The notes under the pieces were generated by a model that made no database searches, was not told the origin of the DNA, and was given only the letters and a program-made list of their open reading frames with translations. The translations under genes and the position numbers were made by a program. Positions 36,708 to 43,989 of a stretch of DNA of 43,989 nt are shown here, one piece after another. The stretch covers positions 1-43,989 of the forward strand of contig JAUWZV010000004.1 in NCBI GenBank assembly GCA_030615105.1, written 5' to 3'. Source of the DNA: Desulfobacteraceae bacterium. GTDB lineage: Bacteria; Desulfobacterota; DSM-4660; Desulfatiglandales; B25-G16. Each line of letters opens with the position of its first letter. The stretch's first letter is position 1.

Positions 36708-36762
36708 ATGATTGCAACTTGGTATGAGGCGACATAAAGTGATACTTGGTGATTCAAGGCGA

Positions 36763-38190
36763 ATGAAAGAAAAAAATGGGTTATTGCTATTATTTCTCTT
36801 TATTGTCGTTATATGGGTCTTTGTGGTTAAAGCTGACACCATCCACCCCCAGGGTTCCTATCAGACTAAGGAAGCTTATACTATTTTAAAAGGAACACAG
36901 AACACAGCCTTGAGCCAAGATCGACTTATTCAGGTAAAAGGAGATTCAGATATTGAGCAGAGGTCCCAGAAGCAAAGTGCAGGTGCAAGCATCTGGTTTA
37001 CATTGCTTGCAATCTTTCTTGGGGGCCTGGCCCTGAATCTTACGCCTTGTGTTTATCCTCTTATTCCCATAACTGTATCCTATTTCGGTGGAAAGAGTGA
37101 GAGGATACGAGGTCAAACTATAATTCATGGGTTATTATATATATTTGGCCTGTCAATGACCAATTCTTTGCTGGGCCTGTCAGCCGCTTTGTCAGGGGGT
37201 ATGCTCGGCTTTGCACTCCAGAATCCTTTTGTTTTGATATTCGTAGCCGGTGTAATGGTTGCTATGGCTCTGAGTTTCTTCGGTTTGTGGGAACTCAGGC
37301 TACCTATAGGGCTCACACGGGTGGCATCGAAGAGCTACGCCGGTTTCTTAGGAACATTCTTTATGGGCCTGACCCTGGGAATAGTAGCTGCTCCATGTCT
37401 TGGCCCCTTTATACTGGGACTTTTGGTATACGTAGGGCGAATGGGAGACCCCTTTCTGGGTTTCCTTTATTTCTTCGTACTTAGCATCGGCCTTGGTTTA
37501 CCTCTTTCGGTTTTGGCCGTTTTCTCAGGAGCCATAGCCAGGTTACCCAAGTCAGGGGACTGGATGCTGTGGATAAGAAAGTTTATGGGCTGGGTTCTCC
37601 TCGGCATGGCAGCCTTTATGATAAGCCCTTTAATATCCCACCTTTTTGGAAGGCATTGGCTCTTGGCCGGAGTATCTGCAGCAGCAGGCATCCATCTTGG
37701 TTGGCTTGATAAGACAGGAGCTAAGCTCAGGATTTTTCCATATCTCAAAAAGGTCATTGGAATCGTCATGGTATGTGGTGGAATTTTCTACCTGGTGCTA
37801 ACAAGCCAGCACATTGGAGGGATCGAATGGATTCCATACGATGAATCCATTATTGCAAAGGCTGTGGAAGAAAAAAAACCTATGATTATAGATTTCTATG
37901 CTGACTGGTGTGGGCCATGTGTGGCAATGGAGAAGGAAGTATTTACGGATCCTGAGGTGATAAAGTTAAGCCGTGATTTTATTACCATGCGTTTAGACCT
38001 AACTAAGGTGAAACCATTTCATGATGAGGTAATGAGAAAGTATCAGATCAGGGGTATCCCCACAGCAGTTTTTATAAACAGGCGGGGCGTTGAAGAGAAA
38101 AAACTGAGGGCCGTAGGCTTTGTAGGTAAATCCGAGTTTCTCAATAGGTTAACATGGCTACTTAATAAATCGCCTTCCGCCCAAGAATAG
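36763..38190 (+). CDS. dsbD: DsbD-type thiol:disulfide interchange protein (TM domain plus thioredoxin domain)
   Basis: LNLTPCVYPLIPITVSYFGG; MIIDFYADWCGPCVAMEKEVF; no full N-terminal alpha domain seen. Confidence 0.88.
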   Translation: MKEKNGLLLLFLFIVVIWVFVVKADTIHPQGSYQTKEAYTILKGTQNTALSQDRLIQVKGDSDIEQRSQKQSAGASIWFTLLAIFLGGLALNLTPCVYPLIPITVSYFGGKSERIRGQTIIHGLLYIFGLSMTNSLLGLSAALSGGMLGFALQNPFVLIFVAGVMVAMALSFFGLWELRLPIGLTRVASKSYAGFLGTFFMGLTLGIVAAPCLGPFILGLLVYVGRMGDPFLGFLYFFVLSIGLGLPLSVLAVFSGAIARLPKSGDWMLWIRKFMGWVLLGMAAFMISPLISHLFGRHWLLAGVSAAAGIHLGWLDKTGAKLRIFPYLKKVIGIVMVCGGIFYLVLTSQHIGGIEWIPYDESIIAKAVEEKKPMIIDFYADWCGPCVAMEKEVFTDPEVIKLSRDFITMRLDLTKVKPFHDEVMRKYQIRGIPTAVFINRRGVEEKKLRAVGFVGKSEFLNRLTWLLNKSPSAQE

Positions 38191-38669: not shown

Positions 38670-38838
38670 GGTTTACCCGCCTCTGGCGGGCTTGCCCGCC
38701 GTCTTTGTGGAGGGCTTGTCCGCCGTTATTTTGGCGGGCTTGTCCGCCGTTATTCTTGTCCGCCGTCTTTCTTGTCCGCCGTCTTTGTGGCGGAGTGGCG
38801 GACTGGAGGGCTTGTCCGCCGTTATTTTGGCGGGCTGA
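38670..38838. repeat. Clustered TTGYCCGCCGT-n-GGCGGGC palindromic repeats
   Basis: Repeated CTTGTCCGCCGTTATTTTGGCGGG and CTTGTCCGCCGTCTTTGTGG units. Confidence 0.8.
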
Positions 38839-39024
38839 CCTGAATTCTTTGGGGAGGAGGTAATTGAGTCAGAAATAAAGATTTGAACCGCAAATTCTCT
38901 TCAAAACTATTAGTCAAGAGAAGACTCTTTTATTGTTGTCAGGCATGTGAGTAGTTTTTGACTTGACATGATTTTGCAATGTGGCTACAATATTAAACAA
39001 TTATGTACAAAATAGGAGCAAATC

Positions 39025-39300
39025 ATGGAAACCGTAGGTGTCAAGCAGCTCAGGGACAATCTGAGCCGGATTCTTAAAAGGGTCGAGAGAGGAGAGGTGG
39101 TAAAGGTATTGCGTCACGGAAAAGACGTGGTGGAATTAAGGCCCATAAGAAAGAATGCAGGACAAGAATTCTTGAATCGCCTTAAGGATAAAAATCTCTT
39201 GGCTGGTGGAGGGATCGGAGCAATCAGTTTGGTGAAGACTGTTAAAAATCTCAAGCCTGAGTCACCTGTCTCTGATTTTATCGCTGAGGATCGAAAGTGA
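39025..39300 (+). CDS. Phd/YefM-type antitoxin
   Basis: METVGVKQLRDNLSRILKRVERGEVVKVLRHGKDVVELRPI. Confidence 0.88.
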   Translation: METVGVKQLRDNLSRILKRVERGEVVKVLRHGKDVVELRPIRKNAGQEFLNRLKDKNLLAGGGIGAISLVKTVKNLKPESPVSDFIAEDRK

Positions 39301-39731
39301 TTGCATATTTCGACAGCAGTAGCATTGTTAAATGGTTTTTTGACGAGCCTTTTATGGATTTGGCCAGAGACATCAGAGATAAATCTGAGATCGCTTTCAC
39401 CTCACTCATTTCCTTTCCTGAAGTTATGTCAGCTTTCAACCGCGCCTGGAGGGAAGGCCGTTGTTCCAAATCAGACATGGAACTGGTTCGGAGTGAATTC
39501 TTAAAGATCTGGCCTGACTTCCAATGGATAAAGGTAAGTGAATTGTTAATGCATCAAGCAGGGCAACTCATTTTCGGTCATAGCCTGAAGGGGGTTGATG
39601 CTGTACATCTAGCCTCAGCCCTCTTGTTGAAAGAAGAAGGTGATAGGATTTATCTTTTTTTCTCATGCTTTGACAAAAATCTGAACCAGGCCGCTCAAAG
39701 AGAAGGATTAATGACCCACAAGGCATTATAG
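39297..39731 (+). CDS. PIN domain VapC-like toxin
   Basis: IAYFDSSSIVKWFFDEPF...FTSLISFPEVMSAFNRA...LKGVDAVHLASALLL; GTG start overlapping the antitoxin stop. Confidence 0.9.
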   Translation: MIAYFDSSSIVKWFFDEPFMDLARDIRDKSEIAFTSLISFPEVMSAFNRAWREGRCSKSDMELVRSEFLKIWPDFQWIKVSELLMHQAGQLIFGHSLKGVDAVHLASALLLKEEGDRIYLFFSCFDKNLNQAAQREGLMTHKAL

Positions 39732-39904: not shown

Positions 39905-40110
39905 TTAAGCTTGCCCGCCGTGTTTTTGGAGGGCCTGTCCGCCGTTTTTCTGGAGGGCCTGTCCGCCGTTTTTCTGGAGGGCCTGGCCCCATTCATGACT
40001 ATAATACTTTTTCCCTGAATTCCCTCGTTCGTTGGTTTACCAGAATCAATTTTCAGGGGCATCGTCAATATATCAAGGGCTTGCCCGCCGTTTTTGTGGC
40101 GGGCTGGCCT
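39905..40110. repeat. Second cluster of TTGCCCGCCG/TGTCCGCCG palindromic repeats
   Basis: CTTGCCCGCCGTGTTTTTGGAGGGCCTGTCCGCCGTTTTTCTGGAGGGCCTGTCCGCCG and TTGCCCGCCGTTTTTGTGGCGGGC. Confidence 0.75.
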
Positions 40111-40209
40111 GCTGGCCATCTCATGACCGCACCATTCGCATGAAGGAAAAATCAAGTAAGACATGCCCCCTATTCATAAGTTGCTTTAGACGGTAAGTCC
40201 TCCTCTAAG

Positions 40210-40317
40210 AATGAACTACCTCGCAGCAAGCTACGAGGTATCGAAAACCAGGAAAAGTATGAACGCAGCAAGCTACGGGGAATGAACCCTTGTCCGCCTT
40301 CGGCGGATTCAATCCCT
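40210..40317. repeat. Composite hairpin repeat, left copy
   Basis: AATGAACTACCTCGCAGCAAGCTACGAGGTATC...GAACGCAGCAAGCTACGGGGAAT...TGTCCGCC...GGCGGATT. Confidence 0.85.
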
Positions 40318-40320
40318 GAC

Positions 40321-40527
40321 CTATAGATTTTTATTTAGAAATTTAAGAGCGTCCCGCGTCAGATATGTTTCGATCTTCTTCTCTCCTTCACTCAGGTCAT
40401 CGCGCGACTTCATGTTGAAGTGAAGGACAAAGCGCTTCACCCATCCGCAGTAGCTTCGTTCAGTTCGAATCGAATAGTGTCTCCGCCGCATCACATCGCG
40501 CATATCATCAAGAATCTTACTTGACAT
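40321..40527 (-). pseudogene. Integron integrase (IntI-like) N-terminal remnant
   Basis: ILDDMRDVMRRRHYSIRTERSYCGWVKRFVLHFNMKSRDDLSEGEKKIETYLT matches the N-terminal SAM-like domain of IntI proteins (from memory); catalytic domain absent. Confidence 0.8.
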
Positions 40528-40585
40528 AGATTTCTTCCTATTTTATCGTGTTTTTCATGATCAAAAAGAATATACTATATTGAAT

Positions 40586-40712
40586 AATGAACTACCTCGC
40601 AGCAAGCTGCGAGGTATCAAAACGGAAAAATTCGGAACGCAGCAAGCTGCGGGGAATCAAACCCCTGTCCGCCGTGTTTATGGCGGGCTTGTCCGCCTCT
40701 GGCGGATTGAAA
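40586..40712. repeat. Composite hairpin repeat, right copy
   Basis: Same order of motifs as 40210..40317, direct orientation. Confidence 0.85.
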
Positions 40713-40795
40713 GCAAGTAAATTTGCCTGTTTGTCTGTTCAATATCAGGATATCAGGCAAAATTGCCTTATACGTAAATGTTATAGTTTAAATCC

Positions 40796-41233
40796 ATGAT
40801 ATCACATCTTATTACATTTGTTCTAGGTGCATTTACCGGTGCTGCTGGGAAATATCTCGCAGATAAATATACTGATAAACGGCGGAGCAAGGAAAAAGAA
40901 ACAGGGAAACGGAAAATATTTCTCAACTTAGCGGAGAAGATGCCAGATGTTATCAAAGAAATGCAAGAGGATCTTTCGAAGCCTGAATGTATGGTGATAC
41001 GTGAGTTTTATCTCCTTCCAAACGACCGGGTTTTATTTAACTCCGGTGGGGAGAGGTGTCTGTTCTATTATGAGGATCAACATGAAAATTTAACACACAA
41101 AATAAAACTACTTGAAAATAATGGATTCGTCGAAGATGTAACCCATACAAACACTCCAAAATATCGAATGACAGAAGAATTTGTTGATTGCGTTATTAAA
41201 GCCAAAATCAAATCAAAAAAGGTGAAATTATAA
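40796..41233 (+). CDS. Cassette-type hypothetical protein, N-terminal TM
   Basis: Stop codon lies at the 5' edge of attC-A. Confidence 0.7.
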   Translation: MISHLITFVLGAFTGAAGKYLADKYTDKRRSKEKETGKRKIFLNLAEKMPDVIKEMQEDLSKPECMVIREFYLLPNDRVLFNSGGERCLFYYEDQHENLTHKIKLLENNGFVEDVTHTNTPKYRMTEEFVDCVIKAKIKSKKVKL

Positions 41234-41298
41234 CAACGGAATTCACCAGATCCCAAAAGCCTTGCGGCTTTTGGTCCAGGTGATTCCGGCCGTTAGGC
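41228..41298 (+). other. attC site A
   Basis: TTATAACAACGGAATTCACC ... GGTGATTCCGGCCGTTAGGC; R' GTTAGGC; stem CGGAATTCACC/GGTGATTCCG with one extrahelical base. Confidence 0.8.
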
Positions 41299-41382
41299 AG
41301 CTCGGTTGGCTCTTGAATGGGTGCAAATACATACCGAGAAAAAAGAAAGGAGATGAAAGAAGATAATTAAAGGAGATAGCTA

Positions 41383-41631
41383 ATGAGGATAGACCCTAAA
41401 AACTTAAGTGATGAAGAAATTGTTGAAAAAGTCAGAGGTACATCACTTCTTTCAGATCAAATATCTTGTTTAGCAGAAATGATGAGAAGATTAAGAAACT
41501 CTATTGATGAGTTTAATGTACAATCTACTCTTTGGTCAAGGAGAATATATGGACTGACAGTTCTTATTACAATACTAACTTTGCTCATGTTATTGGCTGT
41601 AGGATTCCAAGTTTGGATAGTTTTAAAATAG
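41383..41631 (+). CDS. Cassette-type hypothetical protein with C-terminal TM, 82 aa
   Basis: Between attC-A and attC-B; GLTVLITILTLLMLLAVGFQVWIVLK. Confidence 0.65.
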   Translation: MRIDPKNLSDEEIVEKVRGTSLLSDQISCLAEMMRRLRNSIDEFNVQSTLWSRRIYGLTVLITILTLLMLLAVGFQVWIVLK

Positions 41632-41766
41632 GCTCAAGAGTCTTAATTAACATAAGGTGAAGAAGACTGGAGAGGGCATATAGTGCTCGACCTTGATTGT
41701 TTAATTTTTTGGGGCAAATTTTAATAATTCCAATTTTTGCGAAGACGATTGCAGGAGGAAGCTTTT

Positions 41767-41840
41767 GCCTAGCAAATCAATGAAGCTGCCATTTCTCACA
41801 TCGCTTCACTCTGCGGGAAATGGCAGCTTATCTCGGATGG
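41767..41840 (+). other. attC-like site B (degenerate)
   Basis: GCCTAGC ... AAGCTGCCATTTC / GAAATGGCAGCTT stem; R' poorly conserved. Confidence 0.5.
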
Positions 41841-41931
41841 GGTGCCTTAACATCAACTCCAAATAGCCATGGTAATAATTTGATAGAACAATTGGCCAGT
41901 ATATTTGGAGCACACACACTGAGAGGTCATA

Positions 41932-42369
41932 ATGCGGAGAAGAAAGGGATGGTGGCAACAGCTTAAGGATAATGACTATCCGAAAACAAAAACCAGCTAT
42001 GGACAAGACATATATGCACTTGATCCGAGACTTTTGGACAAGATACCTCGTGAAACCAAAAAAATTGATGTGAAGAAATCAAAGGAAAAGCCTCCCCATT
42101 TAGAACCTCAATCTGCCAATAAGCCAATAATTCCTACTTCCCAAGAACCACGAGAAGTATATGTATTGCGTTGCAGTTCTTGTGGTCATAAAAAGTTGTT
42201 AACATCTGAATACCTGAAGTACCTTCGAGAAAGTCTATCCATAGATATTTCATTTCTCGATATAGCTCCTTTAAGGGAAAAATTGGGCAGATTTAAATGT
42301 TCATGTTGTGGAGAAAAAAACACTCAACTGATTTCGGAACATCATAAAGTAGATAGTACTCCAACTTGA
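41932..42369 (+). CDS. Cassette-type hypothetical protein with zinc-ribbon-like CX2C pairs, 145 aa
   Basis: LRCSSCGHKKLL...FKCSCCGEKN; stop 3 bp before attC-C. Confidence 0.7.
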   Translation: MRRRKGWWQQLKDNDYPKTKTSYGQDIYALDPRLLDKIPRETKKIDVKKSKEKPPHLEPQSANKPIIPTSQEPREVYVLRCSSCGHKKLLTSEYLKYLRESLSIDISFLDIAPLREKLGRFKCSCCGEKNTQLISEHHKVDSTPT

Positions 42370-42372
42370 TCA

Positions 42373-42444
42373 GCCTAACAAGGCACTCAAGCTGCCCGTG
42401 AAAACGCTGGCGCATTTTCACGGCAGCTTAGTTTAGCGTTAAAT
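42373..42444 (+). other. attC site C
   Basis: R'' GCCTAAC, R' GTTAAAT; stem AAGCTGCCCGTGAAAA / TTTTCACGGCAGCTT with one extrahelical base. Confidence 0.88.
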
Positions 42445-42476
42445 TCCATATGACATATTTTCCATAGGGGTTTCGC

Positions 42477-43670
42477 ATGGAATCATCACTATTAAAAGCA
42501 GTAGATTTTGTAAAAATGGGGGATACTAAAAGTGCCAGAAATATACTGGGCATAAAGGATAAGAACATTTCTGATAGTGATATCGTTGATTCATTAATGT
42601 CGTTTCAAAAAGGATACAAATACTTGCTATCAGGCCACCATTCAAAAGCATTTGAACCTTTGAGAAAATCCCTACCCATGATCAACAATTCAACAGATTC
42701 TGAGGCGCAGTTTGTTACCGCGTTGTTGGCTGATTTTTCGGAAGGTATTTCGAGACTATTTTCAGGGGATGCAGTAGGAGCTTACAACTTATTAAATTTC
42801 AGTGCAGAATCATTTGAAAGAGTTAGCTTTTTTTTGCCAGACTTCGCGAAAGCTGCTCTCAGTACAAAAGCTGCTGCTAATGTCGCATTAGCCAGAAGAT
42901 ACCTCAGTATCGGTGATATTGGTGCGGCTGAATCTCTATCTGGCGCAATTCAACAGATATATTCAGAGCTAATTGCAAAATTAGATGAAGGGGATGAAAA
43001 TGATCTAATTTTTTTTGCAGAGGCTAACGCCGTTCAGATAGAATTTGTTAATATGATGGCTACATTCGATCTCAGTGTCATAAATTTTGATATTGCGGAA
43101 AAACGCCTAATATCTGGAGAAAAGTTGTACTCTGATTTAATTCAGTTATTACCAAAACTAAAAAATACGCCATTTAAACTAGTGGTCGAGATCGATTGTA
43201 CCTTATACTCTGCCGTAAAGAAGATTGTAAAATTAGGTAAAAAAGTAATCGACGAAAAAGCTTTTCTTCAAGAGGCTGAGATTGCCGAATTAAGAGAGTT
43301 AGATTACAGTCTATTTAACGCAAGAACCCTTGCCCATAAAGCTCAGGATCGGGGTAAAGGATACTTGTTTACTATTAATCAACTTAGTCGTTTTCAAGAG
43401 AGGTTGTTGATTTTAGGAAAAATACGAAAAAGAGACTTTATCAACATCAGTGGGCCTATTTCTCTCATATCATTTATTATACTTTTGTTTTCAGTTCATT
43501 TAACTATCCATCCCTCAGGCTACGAGGCTATTCCCTATTTCATAGGTGAACTAATTGTTTCGCTTATTGTTGGTTTCGGTTACGGAGCCCTTCGATTCAT
43601 TCCACTTATTAGATTGTTTACAAAGGCTATCGAGGGCAAAAAGGACAAAATAGATACTTCGATGGACTAA
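42477..43670 (+). CDS. Cassette-type hypothetical protein, helical repeats with two C-terminal TM segments, 397 aa
   Basis: ORF between attC-C and attC-D; stop overlaps attC-D; ISLISFIILLFSVHL and FIGELIVSLIVGFGYGAL. Confidence 0.75.
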   Translation: MESSLLKAVDFVKMGDTKSARNILGIKDKNISDSDIVDSLMSFQKGYKYLLSGHHSKAFEPLRKSLPMINNSTDSEAQFVTALLADFSEGISRLFSGDAVGAYNLLNFSAESFERVSFFLPDFAKAALSTKAAANVALARRYLSIGDIGAAESLSGAIQQIYSELIAKLDEGDENDLIFFAEANAVQIEFVNMMATFDLSVINFDIAEKRLISGEKLYSDLIQLLPKLKNTPFKLVVEIDCTLYSAVKKIVKLGKKVIDEKAFLQEAEIAELRELDYSLFNARTLAHKAQDRGKGYLFTINQLSRFQERLLILGKIRKRDFINISGPISLISFIILLFSVHLTIHPSGYEAIPYFIGELIVSLIVGFGYGALRFIPLIRLFTKAIEGKKDKIDTSMD

Positions 43671-43742
43671 TTTAACCATGTGCTTGACGCTGACTGGTGT
43701 TTCGCTGGCGCTCAACCCCATCAGGTCAGCACCTCGTTAGGA
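43670..43742 (+). other. attC site D
   Basis: R'' ATTTAAC, R'-like GTTAGGA; stem GCTGACTGGTG / CATCAGGTCAGC. Confidence 0.75.
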
Positions 43743-43808
43743 GTCCATTTTGCTATAATTATTGCCACACTCATCCATACATCTTTTGTGGAAAACCTGG
43801 TGACTTTT

Positions 43809-43989
43809 ATGACAGAATCAAAATTTTCTTTACTCGCAGACTATTATGAATACCCCGTAAAGGAAATGAAACAACGCTCAGCTGTATTTTACGCAGACAT
43901 GAAGCGGCGACGAACAGTGCGCCACTTTTCGGACCGGCCGGTGCCCCGTGCGATTATAGAAGATTGCTTGCGCACAGCTGCGACGGCAC
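43809..43989 (+). CDS. Nitroreductase family protein, 3' truncated by window edge
   Basis: [60 protein letters not shown]. Confidence 0.8.

Follow-up and report, generated by a model that had tools for sequence, protein, structure and literature searches.

A chromosomal integron with a truncated intI gene, a retained attI region and three attC sites beside dsbD in a draft Desulfobacteraceae genome

Results

The window, i.e., the whole stretch of 43,989 nucleotides that was analysed, is the entire contig C16 of a draft MAG (2.46 Mb in 171 contigs, 81% complete, 2.7% contamination). Past a dsbD-like gene (36712..38190, plus strand) it carries an intI remnant on the minus strand, an attI region and, on the plus strand, an array of cassettes that runs to the contig end. 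The dsbD-like gene is the left flank of the insertion and shows 93% DNA identity with the same-genus genome G001. There, an ABC transporter gene follows about 130 bp after dsbD, no array is present at this position, and an integrase match was not found in G001. Because only about 130 bp separate dsbD and the ABC gene in G001, synteny places the platform in the dsbD-ABC interval, where the locus would either have been gained in the host or lost in G001. Two further observations concern this part of the window. A gene pair for a Phd/YefM antitoxin and a PIN-domain toxin (39025-39731) resides between dsbD and the intI remnant and thus outside the array. The region from dsbD to the array is also crowded with two families of REP-like and GC-rich repeats, which occur at about 38690-38850 and 39909-40110 as well and have related copies on other contigs.

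Integron integrases are IntI proteins that carry an extra domain. The minus-strand ORF at 40321..40527 comprises codons 1-57 of IntI (40357-40527), followed by 11 foreign codons and a stop. The first-pass annotation had described it as the N-terminus of IntI only and had proposed a comparison with an IntI HMM. This comparison bears the description out: the ORF matches TIGR02249, the model for integron integrases, over positions 1-54 of 315 (E 1.4e-10) and also Phage_int_SAM_4 (E 3.3e-11), which represents the SAM-like N-terminal domain of phage integrases. An intact intI, which the same annotation had suggested looking for in related genomes, is present in the host MAG itself. Contig C124 encodes a complete IntI of 321 amino acids (L013 7194-8159), which scores 437 bits with TIGR02249, above the cut-off, and aligns end to end with IntI4 of PDB entry 2a3v (319 residues, E 4.6e-92). 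All 57 residues of the remnant are identical to this protein, and the 171 nt compared contain 2 synonymous differences. Because the remnant matches TIGR02249 and its intact homologue aligns with the IntI4 structure, we assign it by homology to IntI and not to another recombinase. No integron integrase is left at the locus, as only codons 1-57 have been retained and the catalytic domain is absent.

Past codon 57 (40357), the remnant switches to a segment that is repeated on three other contigs. This intergenic segment (40308..40355) abuts the intI break point, is 48 bp long and AT-rich (CCCTGACCTATAG..TTTTTATTTAGAAATTTAAGAGCGTCCC), and has copies on C4 (98%), C58 and C128. A link of the repeat to Y1/RAYT transposases was considered and rejected, as no match lies near any of those transposases. 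On the other side of the remnant, between the intI start codon and attI, a REP-like element with two hairpins is located at 40592..40705 (fold z -4.2 over 40580-40720; repeats D3/D4/D7 fall there). The intact copy on C124 lacks this element, as seen from the blastn gap from 40591 to 40706 against L013. A second REP-like element was found in the repeat search at about 40207-40316. The hexamer ATTGAA flanks the element in the leader and would be a possible 6-bp target duplication; we do not claim it as such, since nearly the same letters end another copy.

Apart from the inserted element, the leader closely resembles that of the intact platform. Window positions 40357-40591 are 96.2% identical to the C124 copy (blastn), and the attI region (40706..40783, plus strand, core TAAATGTTA) is 98.7% identical, with 1 difference in 78 nt and a match that ends at TAAATG/TTA. 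In an alignment with C124 and with L021, L022 and L023, three integron platforms from other records, conservation extends up to GTT, beyond which the window sequence is unrelated. The alignment thus identifies the conserved block ending at GTT as the attI site, to which the first cassette is joined between G40780 and T40781, the expected crossover position. An attI site beside intI, as in other integrons, is accordingly present at 40706-40783. Neither this site nor the intact relatives of the integrase had been part of the first-pass annotation. Promoter-like sites sought as Pc lie at 40521-40549 and 40552-40581 on the plus strand; the total count of such sites is no greater than in shuffled sequences.

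In an attC site, an R'' box (RYYYAAC) and an R' box (GTTRRRY) enclose an imperfect stem, whose unpaired bases generally sit on the top-strand 5' arm. At least four such sites had been proposed in the window, and a covariance search with IntegronFinder had been suggested as a check. We used a model of our own, built from 40 attC sites of arrays divergent to other integrases, none of them from the window, and searched the whole 44-kb window with filters off. An earlier cmsearch model of the attC ends alone could not span the variable loop, found neither A nor C and was replaced. With the final model, for which E-values are rough, attC A (41228..41298, plus strand) scored 24.1 bits (E 0.0014) and attC C (42373..42444, plus strand) 42.6 bits (E 8e-8). 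Beyond these two, the best match in the 44 kb reached 9.4 bits, and site D was missed by the model. An Rfam scan gave no match of note. Site A has the R' box GTTAGGC (41292-41298) and a bottom-strand fold z of -6.2, while site C has the boxes GCCTAAC (R'') and GTTAAAT (R') and a fold z of -5.7.

attC D (43670..43742, plus strand; R'' ATTTAAC, R' GTTAGGA, fold z -3.8) emerged from a motif-plus-hairpin scan, in which R'' and R' boxes must surround a single hairpin. Its stem is GTGCTtGACgCTGAcTGG / CCATCAGGTCAGCAC, with unpaired bases in lower case, and the three unpaired bases sit on the 5' arm of the top strand. Over 49 nt it is 86% identical to an attC in the array on contig C4 (L125 2007-2080). 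On the plus strand of the whole window only A, C and D pass the scan, on the minus strand the sole pass is the self-complementary C site, and dinucleotide shuffles yield 0.13 passes per 44 kb on both strands; because the thresholds were set after A, C and D had been seen, we treat the scan as supporting evidence only. Matches to the R'' and R' boxes amount to 7/7 and 7/7 for C, 7/7 and 6/7 for D, and 5/7 and 7/7 for A. All three sites combine these boxes with an imperfect stem, and all three lie on the plus strand, divergent from the minus-strand remnant. On sequence and predicted structure, we regard A, C and D as real attC sites. Site B (41767..41848, plus strand), the fourth of the proposed sites, has an attC-like stem, the R''-like motif GCCTAGC and a fold z of -3.7. 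It has no R' (GTTRRRY) box and no match to the covariance model, and would be either a decayed attC or a chance, false site and not a complete attC. Likewise, the proposed proximity of each site to an ORF stop holds for A and D, which overlap the stop codon of the ORF before them, and for C, which follows such a stop within 4 nt, but not for B, which is situated about 135 nt past its ORF.

Cassette 1 (40781..41292, plus strand) extends from the attI core to the R' box of attC A and encodes a protein of 145 amino acids (40796..41233, plus strand) with an N-terminal hydrophobic stretch and weak similarity to cyanobacterial plasmid proteins (31% over 89 aa). Cassette 2 (41293..42438, plus strand), bounded by attC A and C, contains two ORFs: one for 82 amino acids with a C-terminal hydrophobic segment (41383..41631, plus strand), the other for 145 amino acids (41932..42369, plus strand) with two CxxC pairs, zinc-ribbon-like in character and weakly matching Zn_ribbon_4 (E 0.09). 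It is probably a fusion of two cassettes in which the inner attC, site B, has decayed. Cassette 3 (42439..43736, plus strand), between attC C and D, carries an ORF for 397 amino acids (42477..43670, plus strand) with C-terminal hydrophobic segments; searches of 85 genomes from the order and of 72,556 plasmids found no relative of this protein. The remaining stretch (43737..43989, plus strand) is the start of the next cassette or the end of the array and holds a nitroreductase-like ORF (PF00881, E 1e-4) cut by the contig end. In agreement with the first-pass annotation, which had called the cassette genes uncharacterised, Pfam, NCBIfam, PHROGs and PADLOC assigned none of the four complete cassette ORFs to a characterised family, and a search for defence genes among the window cassettes found nothing.

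The far side of the interval appears on another contig of the host MAG. An orthologue of the ABC gene (95%) opens contig C123; ahead of it lie a YefM/YoeB toxin-antitoxin pair, another antitoxin gene and a weak attC-like match (12.2 bits, E 0.19). Chromosomal integrons are known to carry toxin-antitoxin cassettes (PMC11023631). As expected from synteny and from the very weak attC-like match, the start of C123 would represent the far end of the array. Contig C4 was also considered as the continuation of the window array and was set aside, since synteny favours C123. C4 (L125 1-6850) carries a second array with aminotransferase, aspartyl-protease-like, SYLF-domain and methyltransferase-like genes, and no integrase match was present on this stretch.

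The integron on C124 shares the IntI N-terminus and attI with the window but differs from it by its complete 321-aa integrase and by its other cassettes. Its four attC sites reside on the strand divergent from the integrase and score 39.5, 32.9, 45.7 and 23.6 bits with the covariance model. One C124 cassette gene (L013 5929-6852, minus strand) codes for a protein that combines a TIR domain with an Mrr-type nuclease domain, a defence-like architecture. We infer that C16 and C124 stem from one cell lineage; because the genome is a draft MAG, the two contigs could also derive from co-assembled strains.

Discussion

It is very probable that the window contains a chromosomal integron in the dsbD-ABC interval with an intI gene truncated at codon 57, a retained attI and three retained attC sites, on which the IntI encoded on C124 could act in trans. 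The original platform would have consisted of a complete intI divergent from the array, between dsbD and the ABC transporter gene. The part of intI downstream of codon 57 would have been lost or replaced beside the intergenic repeat, and the intI leader would have acquired a REP-like element. With intI lost or replaced past codon 57, no catalytic integrase can be made from the window locus. By their anatomy, attI and the three attC sites are predicted to remain ready for recombination, and the C124 integrase could insert and excise cassettes at the window platform in trans. An integrase acts on attI and attC at any location, and arrays lacking an integrase can be mobilised in trans (PMC12444791), which is why the C124 enzyme could serve the window platform. 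It is this order of events, together with the activity in trans, that we infer. The core of the first-pass reading, a chromosomal integron with an N-terminal intI remnant and a divergent cassette array, is thereby upheld by homology, the attC model, the attI alignment and synteny with G001.

The same annotation had gone further and described the locus as CALIN-like, its integrase lost. This applies locally: a CALIN is defined by two or more attC sites with no functional integrase beside them, and here the covariance model finds two sites, to which motif, structure and homology add a third. Unlike a CALIN, the window still has a recognisable intI remnant and attI attached, and on the scale of the genome the description fails, as attI is intact and a complete IntI is encoded on C124. 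For the same reason, the window array is not necessarily frozen, since the complete integrase on C124 has the same N-terminus and is accompanied by the same attI. The opposite position, that the array is inert and no integrase acts on it, the intact copy coming from another strain of the bin or not being expressed, would fit the decay of site B with its fused cassette, the nature of the genome as a MAG and the view of CALINs as degraded integrons (PMC9024848). We consider it doubtful, given an attI almost without decay (1 difference in 78 nt) and a near-canonical attC C. A different history, in which the dsbD-ABC interval received a copy of attI and of the 5' part of intI from the intact integron, so that a whole intI never existed there and cassettes were added in trans, appears unlikely. 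It would account for attI and remnant being near-identical to C124 whereas flanks and cassettes differ, and for a remnant without amino-acid change, but the only left boundary of such a duplication is a repeat also present elsewhere, and decay in place requires fewer assumptions. Quite unlikely, in our judgement, is a split system in which a platform of attI and a 57-codon intI is kept as an additional docking site and the complete integrase of its sister platform, on the same chromosome, acts on it in trans. Finally, REP-like repeats do adjoin the remnant, and the palindromes might thus be taken for REP-like or terminator hairpins and the ORF for the remnant of an ordinary phage-type tyrosine recombinase; the identity with IntI, the attC model, the motif scan and the alignment of the homologue with the IntI4 structure contradict this and leave it with hardly any probability.

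Integrons in which intI is truncated and the array left over are well known, and one decayed in place, as we prefer to read the window, is in this respect an ordinary broken integron. Arrays retained beside a truncated integrase are well documented (PMC12444791; for class 2 integrons, PMC8876359). Chromosomal integrons of Xanthomonas with truncated or deleted intI likewise occupy a fixed locus and keep mostly unknown cassettes (PMC12444791), whereas the window belongs to a different phylum, has an intact attI and is accompanied by a near-identical complete integrase elsewhere in the MAG. Class 2 integrons also combine a truncated integrase, with a stop codon at position 179 of intI2, with intact attI and array (PMC8876359), but they are mobile, Tn7-borne and carry resistance cassettes, whereas the window integron is chromosomal, has unknown cassettes and is truncated after codon 57. 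The general understanding of integrons is unchanged by the locus; it provides a clearly delimited example of integrase loss from a lineage that has been little studied, and its cassette genes add further uncharacterised proteins. The near-identical intact sister platform makes service of a broken integron in trans testable.

Among named records, the integrases most similar to that of the host genome come from a Candidatus Aegiribacteria MAG (93% identity) and a Thermodesulfobacteriota MAG (85%). The former (L020 3-908) sits at a contig end in a bin that by name belongs to a different phylum, and points either to recent transfer or to misbinning. The same-family genome G007 has two C-terminally truncated IntI genes (L162 5571-6077, minus strand, and L163) that match only to residue 149, which suggests that the integrase has been truncated repeatedly in this family.
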